Assembly: GCA_905215045.1 (NCBI GenBank)
Contig: CAJMOO010000028.1
Coordinates: 1 to 22,806, forward strand
Length of the DNA: 22,806 nucleotides
Direction of reading: 5' to 3'
Source: an uncultured bacterium
GTDB taxonomy: Bacteria > Bacillota_A > Clostridia > Lachnospirales > Lachnospiraceae
How positions within the stretch are numbered: position 1 is the first letter of the stretch; each line of letters starts with the position of its first letter. Of this stretch, positions 5,992-19,506 are shown piece after piece. A program made the position numbers and the translations under genes. The notes under the pieces were generated by a model. That model worked only from the letters and a program-made list of their open reading frames with translations. It was not told the DNA's origin and ran no database searches.

Positions 5992-6017
5992 GAGTGGATA
6001 AGTACAGGAGGGAATCA

Positions 6018-6821
6018 ATGGAATTACAGTTATGGAGAGAAATGCTCACCCCATATGAGCTGGCAGTAGATGAACTTGTGTTAAAGTTTCGGCATATTAT
6101 AAGAGAATACAGGAATGTCGGAAGGTATTCACCGATCGAACAGGTTGACGGACGTGTAAAATCAATTTCAAGTATCTTAGACAAGATGCAGAGAAAGAAG
6201 ATTAATGTCAACGATGTGGAGAAGGAACTGGAAGATATTGCGGGAGTGAGGTTGATCTGTCAGTTTGTGGAAGATATCGATAAGGTTTTAGAAATAATCG
6301 AAAGCCGCTCTGATATGGAAATCAAGAGCCACAAAGATTATATTTCACATTCCAAAGACAGTGGATACCGAAGCTATCATGTGATCATTTACTATGAAGT
6401 GAATACGATTTATGGGAAGAAACGGATTCAGGCAGAGATTCAGATCAGAACACTTGCAATGAATTTCTGGGCAACCGTAGAACATTCATTGCAGTATAAG
6501 TATAAAGGAGATATTCCAAAACATGTAACGGATAAGCTCCTTGTGGCATCCAATGCGATTGATGTATTAGATCATGAGATGTCAACGGTTCGAGATGAGA
6601 TCATGGATGCACAGAATTCGTTCCGCAAGAAGTCAAATCTTGTATCAGAGATTCTTCATACGATGCAGAATTTATACAAAGTTGCAAATCGTCATGAAGT
6701 CTTAAAGATTCAGGATGAATTTTATAAAATATACGAGACAGGAGATATGGAACGCTTAGAGCATTTTAATAAGCAGCTGGATATTATCGCAGAAGGATAT
6801 CGTGCTCAAAGCATTTCTTAG
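6018..6821 (+). CDS. relQ: Small alarmone synthetase, RelQ/YjbM type
   Basis: This is a single-domain (p)ppGpp synthetase: it transfers pyrophosphate from ATP to GDP or GTP and lacks the HD hydrolase domain of long Rel proteins. Visible family motifs are SPIEQVDGRVKS (38-49), DIAGVRLICQF (73-83), SGYRSYH (115-121) and EIQIRTLAMNFWATVEHSL (140-158) with the expected catalytic E140. The closest match from memory is B. subtilis YjbM/RelQ. The protein has 267 residues against about 211 for YjbM, so it carries an extra C-terminal segment of about 55 residues from roughly residue 210. I chose ATG 6018 because AGGAGGG is at 6006-6012; an in-frame GTG at 5994 would start upstream of that site. It is first in a run of RNA-modification genes. 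Confidence 0.93.
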   Translation: MELQLWREMLTPYELAVDELVLKFRHIIREYRNVGRYSPIEQVDGRVKSISSILDKMQRKKINVNDVEKELEDIAGVRLICQFVEDIDKVLEIIESRSDMEIKSHKDYISHSKDSGYRSYHVIIYYEVNTIYGKKRIQAEIQIRTLAMNFWATVEHSLQYKYKGDIPKHVTDKLLVASNAIDVLDHEMSTVRDEIMDAQNSFRKKSNLVSEILHTMQNLYKVANRHEVLKIQDEFYKIYETGDMERLEHFNKQLDIIAEGYRAQSIS

Positions 6822-12926: not shown

Positions 12927-13544
12927 ATGGAGAAGAGAGGTTCATTACTGGTACTGTCTGGATTTTCCGGTGTCGGAAAAGGAACAGTAGCGAAGAAACT
13001 GGTAGAAAAATACGGATACAGCTTATCAATTTCCGCAACGACAAGAAAACCAAGAGAAGGGGAAGTCGATGGGAGAGAGTATTTTTTTAAGTCCGTAGAT
13101 GATTTTAAAAATCTGATCGATTATAATGGATTTATCGAGTATGCCAGATATGTGGACAATTATTATGGAACGCCAAGAAAGTTTGTGGAAGAGGAACTTG
13201 CAGCAGGACATAATGTGATCTTGGAGATTGAGGTACAGGGTGCATTCAATATTAAGAAACAGTATGAAGATGCATTACTGATCTTTATCACAGCCCCAAG
13301 TGCCGCAGCGATCAAAGAACGTCTGGTGGGAAGAGGAACAGAATCCGAAGAAGTGATCAACAAACGTATCAACCGTGCCAAAGAGGAATCAGAAGACATG
13401 GACAAATACGATTATATTGTGATCAATGACCAGGTGGAAGATTGTGCGGACCGAATTCATGCCATTGTACAGGCAAAAGACTGCCTGCTTGGAAATAATC
13501 TTAAATTTATAGAAGAAACTAAAAAAGAATTAGAACAACTATAG
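12927..13544 (+). CDS. gmk: Guanylate kinase
   Basis: Gmk phosphorylates GMP or dGMP to the diphosphate with ATP in the cytosol, and is an essential step in GTP supply. The 205 residues are standard. The P-loop is SGFSGVGKGT (11-20). GMP-binding segments follow: SISATTRKPREGEVDGREYFF-type residues near 34-54, EYARYVDNYYGTPR and ILEIEVQGA. The lid contains RLVGRGTESEEVINKRINRA. In many Firmicutes Gmk is directly inhibited by (p)ppGpp; since a relQ operon ends only 1 kb upstream, this may be relevant, but no regulatory residue can be proven by eye. The start is ATG 12927. The stop codon overlaps the AGGAGG of rpoZ. Confidence 0.97.
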   Translation: MEKRGSLLVLSGFSGVGKGTVAKKLVEKYGYSLSISATTRKPREGEVDGREYFFKSVDDFKNLIDYNGFIEYARYVDNYYGTPRKFVEEELAAGHNVILEIEVQGAFNIKKQYEDALLIFITAPSAAAIKERLVGRGTESEEVINKRINRAKEESEDMDKYDYIVINDQVEDCADRIHAIVQAKDCLLGNNLKFIEETKKELEQL

Positions 13545-13555
13545 GAGGAATTATT

Positions 13556-13798
13556 ATGTTACATCCATCATATACAGAATTAATGAAAGTTATCAACGGT
13601 GACAGCGAAGAAGAGAAAGTTATCTCAAGCCGTTACTCTATCGTACTTGCAAGTGCTAAGAGAGCAAGACAGATCATCGCAGGAGATATGCCATTAGTAG
13701 AAGAAAAAGATGGTGCAAAACCATTATCCACAGCCGTTGAAGAACTTTGGGAAGAAAAGGTTAAGATTCTCGGAGACGACGAAGAAGCAGAAGAATAG
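13556..13798 (+). CDS. rpoZ: RNA polymerase omega subunit
   Basis: Omega assists folding and assembly of the beta' subunit of RNA polymerase. The product has 80 residues with the conserved omega core SRYSIVLASAKRARQI at about 23-38, followed by KPLSTAVEELWEEKV and an acidic tail DDEEAEE. The gene follows gmk after 11 bases, with an ideal AGGAGG ribosome site (13543-13548) that overlaps the gmk stop codon; strong translation is expected. The gmk-rpoZ pairing is conserved widely in bacteria, which supports the call even though the protein is small. A hairpin follows, so it probably ends this transcription unit. Confidence 0.94.
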   Translation: MLHPSYTELMKVINGDSEEEKVISSRYSIVLASAKRARQIIAGDMPLVEEKDGAKPLSTAVEELWEEKVKILGDDEEAEE

Positions 13799-13819
13799 AA
13801 ATAGTAAGGAAAACAAAAC

Positions 13820-13847
13820 AGGGTGCTTAGGAATTCCTAAACACCCT
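13820..13847 (+). terminator. Hairpin terminator after rpoZ (weak T-run)
   Basis: AGGGTG-c-TTAGG (13820-13831) pairs with CCTAA-a-CACCCT (13836-13847) around an AATT loop, leaving one C-A mismatch. The tail is TTATTTG, so the T-run is imperfect. It is probably a partial terminator that allows some read-through into uppP, for which no clear promoter is visible. Confidence 0.65.
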
Positions 13848-13872
13848 TATTTGTACAGACAGGGAGTTTTTT

Positions 13873-14700
13873 ATGGATATTATTTTATTACTTAAAACCG
13901 TATTACTTGGAATTGTTGAGGGAATTACGGAATGGCTGCCAATCAGTAGTACAGGACATTTGATCCTGGCAGATGAATTTATCAAGTTAAACATGACAAG
14001 TGACTTTAAGGAAATGTTTGACGTTGTGATCCAGCTAGGTGCGATCATGGCAGTCGTTGTTTTATATTTTCATAAACTAAACCCATTTTCACCAAAGAAG
14101 AATCACAGGGAGAAGATGGATACGATTGTTTTATGGACAAAAGTAATTCTTGCAGTATTTCCAGCAGCGATCATTGGCGTTTTATTCGATAATTGGCTGA
14201 ATGCTCATTTTTATAATCCACCAGTTGTTGCAGCAATGCTGATCATCTATGGTATTTTATTTATCATTATTGAGAATCGTAACAAACGAAGCAGAAGAAG
14301 ACCGATGAATGATCTTTCCAGATTATCTTATACAATGGCACTTGGAATCGGAGTATTTCAGGTATTGGCATTAATTCCAGGTACATCAAGATCCGGAGCA
14401 ACGATCCTTGGAGGAATCTTACTTGGATGTTCAAGAACTGTTGCAGCCGAATTCTCATTTTTCTTAGGAATTCCGGTAATGTTTGGAGCCAGTCTGTTAA
14501 AGATCGTCAAATTTGGTCTTGTATTTACATCAACAGAATTGATCGTACTGATCGTAGGAATGGTTGTATCTTTCCTTGTATCAATCGTAGCGATCAAGTT
14601 CTTACTTGGATATATTAAGAAGAATGACTTTAAAGCATTTGGTGTATACCGAATCATACTCGGTCTGTTAGTGATTGTGTATTTTGCATTCATCAAATAA
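13873..14700 (+). CDS. uppP: Undecaprenyl-diphosphatase UppP (BacA)
   Basis: UppP is an integral membrane enzyme that dephosphorylates undecaprenyl diphosphate, recycling the lipid carrier for peptidoglycan and other wall polymers; extra copies give bacitracin resistance. The 275 residues carry the two family signatures: [15 protein letters not shown] (17-31) and [10 protein letters not shown] (169-178) with R173, both at the active site facing the outer side of the membrane. About seven to eight hydrophobic segments are visible, for example 50-66, 88-106, 117-133 and the C-terminal 253-273. The start is ATG 13873 with AGGGAG six bases before it. The next gene begins 14 bases after its stop, with its ribosome site overlapping the end of uppP. 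Confidence 0.95.
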
Positions 14701-14714
14701 GGAGTTTGTAAAGA

Positions 14715-15485
14715 ATGGATAAGAATTTATTTCTAAAGAATATGGAAGAGATGATCGCCATTGCAAAGACGAATGGAAATCAGATTGACCACAAAGAATT
14801 ATTAGACTATTTTAGTGATTATGACTTAAACGAGGAAGCAAAGAAACTTCTGATTGCAAGTTTTATAGAAGCTGGAATCCGTGTTCTTGGTGTGGATGAA
14901 GCAAAGATCGTTGCGGAAGAGGAGGCAGAGGCGAAAGCTGATGTTTCAGAAGAAGAGCAGGGAGCAATTCGTTTTTATGAGGAAGAATTAAGCCAGATGG
15001 ATCTTCCAGGAGAAGAAGAACAAAAAGAACTGATCACAGCATGGCTTTCCGATAGAGGAGATGGAGAAGCAGTGATCGAAAGCTTTCTCCCACAGATTCT
15101 TGAAATCGCAAGAAATCATATGGGAAAAGGTGTCTTATTTGGAGATCTTGTACAGGAAGGTAACATTGGACTATTAGAAGCAATGGCAATCTATCAGGGC
15201 AATGATGCCCAAGGCTTTCTTGCACATGCCAAAAGTGCGGTGGAAGATTCCATTCTGGATGCGATCGCAATGCAGAGAGGTTCTGACAGTGTCGGAGAGG
15301 CAATGGCGATCAAAGCAAATCGTTTGGATGATGCATCTACATTTTTATCAAAAGAACTTGGAAGAGAACCAAAGATTGAAGAATTAGCGAAGTATCTTTC
15401 TATGACAGAAGAAGAGGTGAGAGAGGTCATGAAGATTTCTCTGGATGCACTTTCTGTTATGGAAGCAGATATCAAGCAGTCATAG
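14715..15485 (+). CDS. Sigma-A-like protein lacking region 4 and promoter-reading residues
   Basis: The 256 residues are clearly related to the RpoD encoded at 18406. Residues 6-60 match region 1.1, 84-104 region 1.2, and 126-157 region 2.1-2.2, with LFGDLVQEGNIGL keeping D144, Q147, E148 and N150, the counterparts of core-RNA-polymerase contacts. Residues 203-248 match region 3 (KELGREPKIEEL at 213-224). The region 2.3-2.4 tryptophans W187-W188 of RpoD are S174-A175 here, and R190, Q191, T194 and R195 become E177, D178, L181 and D182. Region 4 is absent, and 66-81 form an acidic linker. It therefore should not recognise promoters as a normal sigma factor. A core-binding regulator or decoy is an inference. 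ATG 14715 follows AAGGAG; it lies between uppP and dgt. Confidence 0.85.
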   Translation: MDKNLFLKNMEEMIAIAKTNGNQIDHKELLDYFSDYDLNEEAKKLLIASFIEAGIRVLGVDEAKIVAEEEAEAKADVSEEEQGAIRFYEEELSQMDLPGEEEQKELITAWLSDRGDGEAVIESFLPQILEIARNHMGKGVLFGDLVQEGNIGLLEAMAIYQGNDAQGFLAHAKSAVEDSILDAIAMQRGSDSVGEAMAIKANRLDDASTFLSKELGREPKIEELAKYLSMTEEEVREVMKISLDALSVMEADIKQS

Positions 15486-15522
15486 AAGAATCCTTAGTGT
15501 TAGCAGAGGGGAGGCTGATCTT

Positions 15523-16530
15523 ATGAATATCAGACAAAAGCAGGAACAGACGGAACTAAGGCTGTTAAGCCCGTATGCGACACGAAGTATGGATACAAAA
15601 GGAAGAAGAAAGCCGGAAATGGAATGCGAGATACGGACCTGTTTTCAAAGAGACAGAGACCGGATCTTGCATTGCAAGGCTTTTCGCCGTTTAAAAGACA
15701 AGACACAGGTGTTTTTATCACCAGTGGGAGATCATTACCGGACAAGACTAATGCATACACTTGAAGTGTCACAGAATGCAAGAACGATCGCAAAGGCATT
15801 GGATCTTAATGAGTCCTTAACGGAAGCGATCGCCTTGGGACATGATCTCGGGCATACACCATTTGGTCATGCAGGAGAACGAGTATTAAATGAAATGAAT
15901 CCGAATGGATTTAAACATAACCGGCAAAGCGTACGGGTTGCACAGTATCTGGAGAAGAATGGCGAGGGATTAAATCTCACATGGGAAGTATTAGACGGCA
16001 TGGAAAATCATTCAATGAAAAGTATGCCGCACACCTTGGAAGGAAAAATCGTCCGTCTGGCAGATAAGATTGCGTATATCAATCATGATATTGATGATTC
16101 TGTGCGCGCCAAAGTCTTGAGAGAAGAAGATCTTCCAAGGGAATACACAGATGTGCTTGGAACGACATATCGTGAGCGAATCAATACAATGGTTTTAGAT
16201 ATTGTAAAGCACAGCGAAGGAATCAATGATATTGTGATGTCGCAGGAGATAAGAGATGCGATGACAGGGCTTCGAAGTTTTATGTTCCAGAGAGTATATG
16301 AGGAACCGAATACGAAGAAAGAAGAAGAGAAGATCAAGAATATCATTGGACCATTATACGAATATTATCTTCATCACATTGATGAACTTCCAGTGTATAA
16401 CCAGAAGATGATCAATACGAGAGAAGACAGGGAACAAGCGGTCTGTGACTATATTGCAGGGATGACGGATCACTTTGCGATTGAACAGTATACAGATATT
16501 TTTATTCCAAAATTTTTTATGCAAAAATAA
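15523..16530 (+). CDS. dgt: dNTP triphosphohydrolase (Dgt-like)
   Basis: Dgt-family HD-domain enzymes split dNTPs into deoxynucleoside and triphosphate, lowering dNTP pools. With ATG 15523 the protein has 335 residues, the short form seen in Firmicutes. Metal-binding HD residues are visible: RLMHTLEV with H78, GHDLGHTPFGH with H107-D108, and INHDIDD further on. The N-terminal FQRDRDRILHCKAFRRLKDK segment (41-60) is typical of the family. The start was chosen because GAGGGGAGG (15506-15514) lies eight bases upstream; a longer reading frame from 15445 would overlap the previous gene. It precedes dnaG and rpoD, an arrangement known from Clostridia that links dNTP control to replication. Substrate preference cannot be read from the sequence. 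Confidence 0.92.
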   Translation: MNIRQKQEQTELRLLSPYATRSMDTKGRRKPEMECEIRTCFQRDRDRILHCKAFRRLKDKTQVFLSPVGDHYRTRLMHTLEVSQNARTIAKALDLNESLTEAIALGHDLGHTPFGHAGERVLNEMNPNGFKHNRQSVRVAQYLEKNGEGLNLTWEVLDGMENHSMKSMPHTLEGKIVRLADKIAYINHDIDDSVRAKVLREEDLPREYTDVLGTTYRERINTMVLDIVKHSEGINDIVMSQEIRDAMTGLRSFMFQRVYEEPNTKKEEEKIKNIIGPLYEYYLHHIDELPVYNQKMINTREDREQAVCDYIAGMTDHFAIEQYTDIFIPKFFMQK

Positions 16531-16593
16531 AGGAAAATAAAAAAAGATGTAGAATAATATATTATAGAGGGATTTTTTAAGGAGGGACAAGCG

Positions 16594-18369
16594 TTGATTT
16601 ACGGAGAAGAAATCATAGAAGAGGTGCGAAGCCGGAATGATATAGTAGATCTCATCTCCACTTATGTGCCGCTAAAGAAAAAAGGAAGTTCTTATTTCGG
16701 ATTGTGCCCATTTCACAATGAAAAATCACCCTCTTTTTCTGTAAGCAGAGATAAACAGATGTATTATTGTTTTGGATGTGGGGCAGGCGGAAACGTCTTT
16801 ACTTTTTTGATGGAATATGAGAATTTTACTTTTCCGGAAGCATTAAAGTATCTTGCAGAACGTGCAGGAATGGAACTTCCAGAAGAGGAACTGAATGAAG
16901 AAGCCAAGCGGGCAATGGATGCGAAAGCCAGACTTCGGGAGATGAATAAGCTTTCTGCCAATTATTTTTATTATCTGCTTCACAGCAAACGAGGACAGAA
17001 AGGGCTTGCTTATTTAAAAGACCGTGGCATTACAGATGAGACGATCAAGAGATTTGGGCTTGGCTACGCAGATATTTATAATGATGATCTGTATCGTTTC
17101 CTGAAGAGTAAGGGATACAGTGATGAAGATTTGAAAGATTCTGCACTTGTAACGATCGATGAGAGGCGTGGCGGAAGTGATAAGTTTTGGAACAGAGTTA
17201 TGTTTCCAATCATGGATGTCAACAATCGAGTGATCGGTTTTGGTGGCAGAGTCATGGGAGATGGGTCGCCCAAATATTTAAATTCAAAAGAAACCACATT
17301 ATTCGATAAAAGCCGTAATCTCTATGGATTGAATTTTGCAAGAAGTTCAAGAAAGAAAGAGATTATTTTATGTGAGGGATACATGGATGTCATATCCATG
17401 CATCAGGCAGGATTTACGAATGCAGTAGCAGCACTTGGAACTGCATTTACAAGCGGACATGGAACACTGCTTAAACGTTATACAGAGAATGTTATACTTT
17501 CATTTGACAGTGATGAAGCCGGACAGAGAGCAATTTTACGTGCAATTCCGATTCTTAAGGAAGCGGGACTGACTGTCCGTGTACTGGATCTTAAGCCATA
17601 CAAAGATCCGGACGAGTTTATCAAAGGATTAGGAAGCGAAGCACTAGAAGAAAGAATAAGAAAAGCAACCAGCAGTTTTATGTTTCAGGTAAAAGTTGCT
17701 GCAGGAAGATATGATCAGAACGATCCAGAGGAGAAGACAAAATTCCAGCATGAAGCGGCAAAGCTGCTTTCAACGATTGAGGAACGTCTGGAACGTAAGA
17801 ATTATATTGACGCTGTATCAAGAGAATATTATATTGATGCAAAAGATCTGGAAGAATTGGTTAATTATTATGGAACTTCTGGATATGCAACAGCACAAAG
17901 GCAGCAAAATACACCAAAACAGCCAGAGAGAAGACTGCAGCAGAGCGAAGCAAAAGAAGAAAAGAAAAAGCAGCCACAGAAACTTCTGCTTACATGGATG
18001 GTCAATGAGCCACAGTTATTCGAGAAATTGAAGGGAATCATCGGGCCAGATGATTTTTATGAACAGATTTATCATGGAGCGGCATTACTGCTGTTTAAAC
18101 AATATGAAGAAGAAAACGCAGTAATACCAGGAAAGATATTAAATCAATATACAGATCTTAATGATCAGAAGAAGATCGCAGAATTATTTAATACGACATT
18201 GAAGATCAGTCCGTCACCAGAGGATCGCAATAAAGCGTTGAATGATATTGTGCGAAGAGTGAAAGAAGATAGTATTGAACAACAGATGAACGCAACAAAT
18301 GATATTTTGAAATGGCAGGATTTGATCAAGGAGAAAGCAAACCTTGCAAAACTGCATATTTCATTATAG
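16594..18369 (+). CDS. dnaG: DNA primase DnaG
   Basis: DnaG synthesises the RNA primers for lagging-strand DNA replication and works with the replicative helicase. The 591 residues contain the N-terminal CHC2 zinc finger with C38, H41, C59 and C62, then the RNA polymerase core with RVIGFGGRVMGDGSPKYLNS-type residues near 209-229, the TOPRIM motifs with E259 in LCEGYMDV and D303/D305 in SFDSDEAGQ, and a C-terminal helical helicase-binding domain from about residue 460. Residues 425-465 form a Gln/Lys/Glu-rich linker. The start is TTG at 16594, supported by AAGGAGGG at 16579-16586 and by the family-like beginning EEIIEEVRSRNDIVDLIS. An A/T-rich leader precedes it; no convincing promoter is visible. 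Confidence 0.97.
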   Translation: MIYGEEIIEEVRSRNDIVDLISTYVPLKKKGSSYFGLCPFHNEKSPSFSVSRDKQMYYCFGCGAGGNVFTFLMEYENFTFPEALKYLAERAGMELPEEELNEEAKRAMDAKARLREMNKLSANYFYYLLHSKRGQKGLAYLKDRGITDETIKRFGLGYADIYNDDLYRFLKSKGYSDEDLKDSALVTIDERRGGSDKFWNRVMFPIMDVNNRVIGFGGRVMGDGSPKYLNSKETTLFDKSRNLYGLNFARSSRKKEIILCEGYMDVISMHQAGFTNAVAALGTAFTSGHGTLLKRYTENVILSFDSDEAGQRAILRAIPILKEAGLTVRVLDLKPYKDPDEFIKGLGSEALEERIRKATSSFMFQVKVAAGRYDQNDPEEKTKFQHEAAKLLSTIEERLERKNYIDAVSREYYIDAKDLEELVNYYGTSGYATAQRQQNTPKQPERRLQQSEAKEEKKKQPQKLLLTWMVNEPQLFEKLKGIIGPDDFYEQIYHGAALLLFKQYEEENAVIPGKILNQYTDLNDQKKIAELFNTTLKISPSPEDRNKALNDIVRRVKEDSIEQQMNATNDILKWQDLIKEKANLAKLHISL

Positions 18370-18405: not shown

Positions 18406-19506
18406 ATGGAAGGTACAATGGAACAGTTCACCGAGAAACTTGCAGGACTGGTGGAATTAGGAAAAAAGAATAAGAACTTTTTGGAGTATGCACAGATTGA
18501 TTCATATTTCAAAGATATGAAACTGACTTCTGATATGATGGAAGCAATTTATGATTATCTGGAACAGAATGGAATCGATGTACTTACTCTTGCCGCAGTT
18601 GCAGACGATGATGACGATCTTGATGATCTTGACGATACATTAGAGGATGAGACAGAGATTGCCGTTCCTGATGGTGTCAGCATTGAAGATCCAGTTCGTA
18701 TGTACTTAAAAGAGATCGGTAAAGTACCGCTTCTTAGTGCAGATGAAGAGATCAAACTTGCACAGAGAATGGAAGAAGGGGATGAAGCAGCCAAGAAGAA
18801 ACTTGCTGAGGCAAACCTTCGTCTGGTAGTAAGTATTGCAAAACGTTATGTTGGACGTGGAATGCTCTTCCTTGATCTGATTCAGGAAGGTAACTTAGGT
18901 CTGATCAAAGCCGTGGAGAAATTCGATTACCGCAAAGGATACAAATTCAGTACTTATGCGACATGGTGGATTCGTCAGGCGATTACAAGAGCAATTGCCG
19001 ATCAGGCAAGAACGATCCGTATTCCAGTGCATATGGTAGAAACGATCAATAAACTGATCCGTGTATCCAGACAGCTTCTTCAGGAACTTGGAAGAGAACC
19101 ATCTCCAGAAGAAATCGCAGCAGAGATGGATATTCCAGTTGAGAGAGTTCGTGAAATCTTAAAGATTTCTCAGGAACCAGTATCATTAGAGACACCAATC
19201 GGTGAAGAGGAAGACAGCCACCTTGGAGATTTCATTCAGGATGAGAATGTACCAGTGCCTGCGGATGCAGCAGCTTTCACTTTACTGAAAGAACAGTTAG
19301 ATGAAGTGCTTGGAACATTAACAGAGAGAGAACAGAAAGTATTAAGATTACGTTTTGGATTAGATGACAGCAGAGCCAGAACACTTGAGGAAGTCGGAAA
19401 AGAATTTAACGTTACAAGAGAACGTATTCGACAGATCGAGGCAAAAGCACTGCGTAAGTTAAGACATCCAAGCCGCAGCAGAAAATTAAAAGATTATTTA
19501 GATTAA
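18406..19506 (+). CDS. rpoD: Primary RNA polymerase sigma factor RpoD/SigA
   Basis: This is the housekeeping sigma factor that directs core RNA polymerase to -35/-10 promoters. The 366 residues show region 1.1 (about 7-62), an acidic stretch (67-83, largely Asp/Glu), region 1.2 from [11 protein letters not shown] (95-105), core-binding [13 protein letters not shown] (154-166), melting and -10 residues around [14 protein letters not shown] (183-196), region 3 with [11 protein letters not shown] (226-236) and region 4 with [28 protein letters not shown] helix-turn-helix residues (328-351). It follows dnaG as in Bacillus and E. coli. ATG 18406 lies behind AGAAAGGGAC. The promoters found in this window fit its expected specificity. 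Confidence 0.97.

Follow-up and report, generated by a model that had tools for sequence, protein, structure and literature searches.

The window analysed here is a 22,806-nucleotide stretch of DNA from an uncultured Lachnospiraceae bacterium (contig CAJMOO010000028.1). One of its open reading frames (ORFs) had been predicted from the letters alone to encode a derivative of the primary sigma factor SigA (RpoD) that keeps the parts binding RNA polymerase and has lost those reading DNA. This sigma-like gene follows uppP and precedes dgt, dnaG and rpoD, all of them on the plus strand (names from NCBIfam):

13873..14700, plus strand: uppP (undecaprenyl-diphosphatase; NCBIfam), ending 14 bases before the sigma-like gene
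14715..15485, plus strand: sigma-like gene, 256 amino acids, ATG start; SigA-derived, with regions 1.1, 2 and 3 and without the sigma finger or region 4
15523..16530, plus strand: dgt (335 amino acids; NCBIfam), beginning 37 bases past the sigma-like gene
16594..18369, plus strand: dnaG (DNA primase; NCBIfam)
18406..19506, plus strand: rpoD/SigA, the full-length paralogue of the sigma-like protein (Pfam, NCBIfam)

The sigma-like protein aligned with the RpoD of the window over residues 6–248 (27% identity, E 7e-24), ungapped between about residue 119 and residue 248, which bears out the predicted gap-free resemblance to sigma-A. Regions 1.1, 2 and 3, for which a profile search had been proposed, all exceeded the curated Pfam cut-offs (Sigma70_r3 3.9e-12, Sigma70_r2 1e-8, Sigma70_r1_1 5.4e-5). 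The same Pfam scan matched neither region 1.2 nor region 4, the latter having been called absent from the start, and the protein stops at the point where a sigma finger (region 3.2) should follow. In an AlphaFold2 model, the predicted local distance difference test score was 91–97 across residues 1–60. The best PDB sequence match was C. difficile SigA (E 1.6e-22). The best NCBIfam model was the RpoD model PRK09210, at 88.6 bits far below its 572-bit cut-off; it was also the top model in four other members of the family described below, that is, in all five tested, which supports the proposed descent from sigma-A. By sequence, the window protein is a SigA relative without its last third, and its fit to the RpoD model and retained region 1.1 suggest that it arose as a duplicate of SigA. 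Its parts are as follows:

14739..14957, plus strand: region 1.1-like N-terminal domain, residues 9–81 (PF03979, 5.4e-5; 23.5 bits against a cut-off of 22.5)
15144..15164, plus strand: core-grip motif DLVQEGN, residues 144–150 (conserved across the family; 0 nonsynonymous changes in residues 139–160 against the reference genome G001)
15213..15299, plus strand: remodelled segment for −10 melting and reading, residues 167–195 (both tryptophans gone, basic residues often acidic)
15315..15458, plus strand: region 3, residues 201–248 (PF04539, 3.9e-12, and alignment)

Core-facing residues are kept and DNA-facing residues are shed across the family

The alignment to RpoD confirmed the substitutions listed in the original prediction. 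D, Q, E and N of the core-binding loop are kept, with L156 replaced by G; W187/W188 become S/A, R190 becomes E, Q191 D, T194 L and R195 D; and the extended −10 contacts are lost (H209 to A, E212 to I). We take the D, Q, E and N of DLVQEGN to correspond to D403, Q406, E407 and N409 of E. coli sigma-70. To place these differences in a family, 61 members (<70% identity) were aligned with 55 Lachnospiraceae RpoDs, and we scored the 105 columns between positions 95 and 262 (window RpoD numbering) that are invariant in RpoD. The classes of grip and DNA-contact columns were picked from E. coli work; the general roles of regions 2.2 and 2.3–2.4 in sigma factors are outlined in an excerpt of PMC4598750.

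Mean retention by the members at the 105 columns was 33%. D157, E161, Q160 and N163 (E. coli D403, E407, Q406 and N409) ranked within the first six, and 59 of the 61 members kept all four. By contrast, no member kept W187, W188, T194 or R195 (W433, W434, T440 and R441, which melt and read the −10 element); also kept in 0/61 were P96, L156, K168, S182, I204, P207, V208, Q226 and P258. H455 and E458 of the extended −10 contact (region 3.0), replaced by A and I in the window protein, were kept in fractions of 0.08 and 0.11. Retention at the four grip columns lay above that at 90 other columns (p 0.0005) and retention at eleven DNA-contact columns lay below that at the others (p 0.002). The pattern exceeds chance over the 61 non-redundant relatives and holds over 35 found without the motif.

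This second set was needed because the initial protein search requires shared words, so that retention of the motif might have been an artefact of the search. Profile A4 comprises only the part after region 2.2 and so excludes the grip motif. We fetched 40 places found with it; region 2 was present in 39 (L195 being the one without), and 35 of these were non-redundant. In this motif-blind set D, Q, E and N were kept in 31, 27, 34 and 29 of the 35 members, with all four in 23 and at least three in 30, while W433, W434, R441 and K426 were each kept in none and T440 in one. Since the split between grip and DNA residues was also seen in a search lacking the motif, it is, at the level of sequence, real, if somewhat weaker here, and a minority of members have a weakened motif.

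Most of the A4-found places (28/39) encode short forms of 169–216 amino acids. These have merely 2 to 36 residues ahead of RpoD position 95 and therefore no room for region 1.1, which was unmatched in all 11 short forms scanned; the motif reads QEAN or QEAS in 21 of the 28 and QEGN in 4. In a model of one short form (L173, residues 100–147), the helix of region 2.4 continues into region 3 as a single 48-residue helix. The exceptional L195, a 116-amino-acid ORF of genome G126 with its region 3 part near 6001–6249, fuses a region 1.1-like start directly to the last part of region 2, followed by region 3, and has no region 2.2. G126 also holds a full member elsewhere (L116), and L195 looks like a decayed second copy.

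At the other end of the protein, at most 39 residues follow region 3 in 59 of the 61 members. The remaining two (L110:5704-6771 and L111:5809-6879), of 356–357 amino acids, carry 64 and 102 extra residues there, in which region 4 was unmatched. Region 4 matches in other scanned members landed on the helix-turn-helix of region 3, and P0091 bears a precomputed region 4 label, yet its alignment row stops with region 3.

The DNA-facing surface has also changed in charge. The mean charge of the 2.3–2.4 segment is −3.7 among members against +3.6 for RpoD (−2 in the window protein), and region 1.1 shifts the opposite way (−8.7 versus −18.8). At the RpoD-invariant K/R columns from 168 to 222, members have K or R in 14% and D or E in 37%, compared with 21% D or E over all columns 95–262; R219 (R465) has turned acidic, to E or D, in 48 of the 61. 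The ratio of nonsynonymous to synonymous substitution rates (dN/dS) between the window and G001 was 0.04 for the sigma-like gene, 0.04 for dnaG and 0.05 for dgt, rough values as the synonymous divergence (dS) is near 1. Two closer pairs gave 0.08 (L212/L213, dS 0.20) and 0.11 (L215/L216, dS 0.31). Within the gene, again between the window and G001, the 2.3–2.4 segment had a ratio of 0.02, residues 85–138 were the least constrained (0.19), and residues 139–160 (region 2.2) showed no amino-acid change at all. The remodelled surface is itself maintained in this pair and is therefore unlike decay. The purifying selection seen in all three comparisons rules out a pseudogene; together with the acidic replacements at basic DNA-facing columns, it supports the earlier suggestion that DNA binding is selected against.

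Distribution and genomic places

A protein search returned 155 matches. Among the matches listed (120), the close ones came from Anaerostipes where named, the distant ones from Lachnospiraceae, and the last were ordinary sigma factors. Members appear in the source records as 'sigma-70 domain-containing protein', 'sigma-70 family RNA polymerase sigma factor', 'RNA polymerase primary sigma factor' or 'hypothetical protein'. When genomes were surveyed with family profiles, short sigma-like frames appeared across many Lachnospiraceae genera. Because RpoD also scores on the full-length family profile (median 244 bits for held-out members, 191 for RpoD), we based the counts on the C-terminal profile A4, on which held-out RpoDs reached at most 65.9 bits; E 1e-20 lies near 75 bits. 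At E <=1e-20, A4 matched 95 of 299 sampled Lachnospiraceae genomes, a figure counted by hand that may be low, as a limited number of candidates was scored. Members were read from 80 of the 95. Matches above 1e-20, which may include other sigma factors, were left out: the first match placed at an rpoD locus (G004) had 1.8e-18, and unread frames of 365–366 amino acids began at 3.9e-19. Samples at the level of the order and the class, whose share outside Lachnospiraceae is only partly listed, matched in 5 of 196 genomes, all five Lachnospiraceae, and in 1 of 196, the reference genome G001. A related-locus search gave five loci, two with members (L133 and L135) and three with RpoD; L133 comes from a metagenome-assembled genome labelled Eubacteriaceae, and restriction to Lachnospiraceae is hence unproved.

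In the nearest genus, all 11 genomes have an orthologue, followed after about 3.7 kb of the same contig by an RpoD-like match. Five of them (L228–L232; G625, G627, G628, G630 and G631) have, besides the nearby RpoD, a further sigma-like frame of 359–407 amino acids, scoring 54–63 bits to the window protein. Across the family divergence is high, the 48 other rows of alignment A3 being 20 to 69% identical to the window protein. In a tree of 124 rows the 24 RpoDs lie together on one side of a branch with a Shimodaira–Hasegawa-like approximate likelihood ratio of 99. The tree, inferred by a rapid LG+G4 search, has many poorly supported forks and an uncertain root; it is consistent with a single origin of the family without rooting it.

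The position between uppP and dgt-dnaG-rpoD that the original prediction emphasized is true of the window and exceptional elsewhere. We read 60 dnaG loci out of the 119 Lachnospiraceae genomes with a dnaG match: dgt lay directly upstream of dnaG in 56, and a family member upstream of dgt in one of these (G001). Seen from the members, dgt was directly downstream at 6 of 81 loci (L034, L091, L092, L093, L106 and L178), two from nearest-genus genomes and four from other genera. Conservation beside dgt and rpoD, which had been put forward for survey, is therefore occasional and a functional link unsupported; because the place of the gene varies, the adjacency is no clue to function. Other members neighbour genes for an S41 peptidase and rho, nrdD and mutY, transketolase, or purL, which is downstream at 15 of the 28 short-form loci and at four long ones (L099, L110, L114 and L115). 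With members at so many unrelated loci, reading function from neighbours was dropped, and we give the purL place no functional meaning. Seven short-form loci (L168, L170, L171, L173, L177, L184 and L186) have a common order of an HPr-like gene, a DinG-like helicase gene, a LysR regulator gene on the opposite strand, the short sigma-like gene and purL, at times with one gene before purL; other short loci hold part of this order. The names were taken from one scanned locus, and PurL from L099.

A region-4 profile built from RpoD was run over the 860 genes of the 81 member loci. It found four RpoD-like proteins at dgt-dnaG-rpoD loci, one further protein of 391 amino acids (in L178), a weak match to one of the members, and nothing beyond these; most members thus have no region-4 partner encoded beside them. 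The 391-amino-acid protein (L178_14, genome G163) is encoded a few genes from the member at a dgt-dnaG-rpoD locus. In the window, neither neighbour, uppP or dgt, is a region-4 partner. A scan of 13500–16700 for promoters and terminators gave 7 promoter-like sites and 1 terminator-like site, not above shuffled sequence (9.2 and 2.0). The terminator-like hairpin, at 13820–13847 upstream of uppP, was called on the minus strand; it is a near-palindrome and may terminate from both sides.

Proposed action on RNA polymerase, alternatives and known systems

The loss of promoter-facing parts together with a kept polymerase grip suggests a protein brake or adaptor on transcription. Because the grip residues are guarded and the DNA-touching ones shed, occupation of the beta' clamp helices without promoter recognition would be the simplest mechanism. 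The sigma-2 domain would dock on these helices (a coiled coil) of RNA polymerase through DLVQEGN. Without −10 melting and reading, region 4 and the finger, the bound protein would be unable to start transcription, and the occupied SigA site would lower or buffer the share of polymerase able to start at promoters. We give an even chance to such a promoter-blind SigA derivative that sits on the clamp helices and competes with SigA; beta' binding, the competition and the conditions under which the protein acts are what we infer. A broader proposal, which we advance tentatively and would not bet on at even terms, is a Lachnospiraceae-specific class of 'null sigma factors' that load on core in place of SigA, present an acidic face to DNA and leave the polymerase blind to promoters, as a protein counterpart to 6S RNA.

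Several observations weigh against promoter-blind competition. At least one grip residue is lost in 12 of the 35 motif-blind members; of the 11 long ones, 6 retain Q406 and 8 retain D. L402, I/M413 and K414 of the same grip stretch (L156, I167 and K168 in the window RpoD) are kept in fractions of only 0.00, 0.15 and 0.00 of the 61 members, and a grip set that includes them no longer stands out (p 0.11). R436 (R190), not counted among the DNA-contact residues, survives in 0.28 of the 61 members and in 16 of the 35. Simple competition leaves the retained sigma-3 fold unexplained, the varied neighbours at the 81 member loci point to no common condition or partner, and retention of the motif would equally fit an anti-sigma factor that recognizes region 2.2.

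A brake on initiation, a role in elongation and polymerase storage would look the same in sequence. On the same grip-residue evidence, the protein might bind the clamp helices during elongation, where it would block re-binding of SigA or the access of NusG-type factors and affect pausing or termination. NusG-family factors use the same helices, and rho and DUF1385 genes are found close to the long forms at L096, L105 and L120. The members have many other neighbourhoods, though, so that the one with rho is probably incidental, a NusG-like part is absent from the Pfam matches of the window protein, and the present results do not separate elongation from initiation; we regard this role as unlikely. 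A factor for polymerase assembly or storage, keeping hold of free beta' or of core, for example in resting cells, would also need the grip, and the window gene sits two genes after an 80-amino-acid ORF that we tentatively label rpoZ-like (no NCBIfam match at 1e-15). Of 30 member loci, each 3.7 kb long, just three (L061, L063 and L064) contained a match to that ORF. Moreover, 6S RNA, which likewise restrains polymerase, was detected at E 0.01 in 113 of 120 Lachnospiraceae genomes (106 of them above the gathering score). The family therefore does not exist for want of a storage system, and we think this explanation distinctly improbable. A mimic of the PhyR type would instead bind an anti-sigma factor through region 2.2 and free a sigma factor without contacting polymerase. 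Excerpts of the literature describe anti-sigma factors that bind region 2.2 (PMC4598750) and PhyR as a sigma-like domain without DNA binding (PMC8103513). The latter excerpt has PhyR degenerate in both its promoter- and its core-facing parts, however, whereas the core-facing residues of this family are among its best conserved; a receiver domain was unmatched in the Pfam scan of the window protein, and no neighbour cluster is common to the whole family, although the genomes were not searched for anti-sigma genes. We consider a mimic improbable.

The family might also supply one half of a two-subunit sigma factor, with a core-binding sigma-2 here and region 4 and promoter reading from a partner. 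In the SigO–RsoA pair, a region 2.3-like part of RsoA reportedly contacts SigO. That pair divides sigma-2 and sigma-4 between two proteins, as described in the excerpt of PMC8103513. The −10 residues are lost from the family, however, and the region-4 search of the 81 member loci found no partner beside most members; the partner could be unlinked, and we judge the arrangement quite improbable. Anti-sigma binding through region 2.2 and an unlinked region-4 partner as in SigO–RsoA (excerpts of PMC8103513 and PMC10141391) nevertheless keep some weight. We give almost no credence to a functionless, decaying duplicate or to an active sigma factor with unusual promoters. The lost region 4 and tryptophans and the high divergence look like decay, but the dN/dS of about 0.04, the presence of the gene in all 11 nearest-genus genomes and the same residues kept family-wide do not, and the tryptophans, T440 and R441 that an active sigma factor would use are gone from all 61 members and, bar one T440, from all 35.

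Should promoter-blind competition with SigA hold, a large family of gut bacteria would control its polymerase through a sigma factor that has become a rival to itself, using small proteins of a widespread family. Such a regulatory route did not turn up in the literature for primary sigma factors: in titles and abstract starts of open-licence papers, the sigma factors that lack region 4 or are decoys, degenerate or mimics were PhyR, SigO–RsoA and phage factors, and this family was undescribed. In that case core binding would also have been separated from DNA reading by nature, which would help in asking how polymerase responds to bound sigma by itself. A defence role for the window protein, as the MzaA component of the MZA anti-phage system, was rejected because the match is weak and due to the sigma domain that the two share (NCBIfam 44.2 bits against 800 needed; PADLOC 26.5 bits).

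Compared with SigA/RpoD, the family has regions 1.1, 2 and 3 in the same order, the same sigma-2 fold and the beta'-facing D, Q, E and N, but it is without region 4, the finger, the −10 tryptophans and T440/R441, and its basic DNA face is often acidic. 6S RNA reduces the number of polymerases able to start at ordinary promoters, and the outcome proposed here would be alike. It differs in being an RNA that binds holoenzyme, and its occurrence in the same genomes as the family (113/120) rules out the family as its replacement. RsoA, as described in the excerpt of PMC8103513, is likewise a sigma-2-bearing protein without region 4; it starts transcription together with the sigma-4-bearing SigO, whereas most members of this family have no such partner beside them and their −10 residues are gone. 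PhyR resembles the family in having a sigma-like domain without promoter recognition, but it is a response regulator whose core-facing part is degenerate (same excerpt), and this family keeps its core-facing residues.
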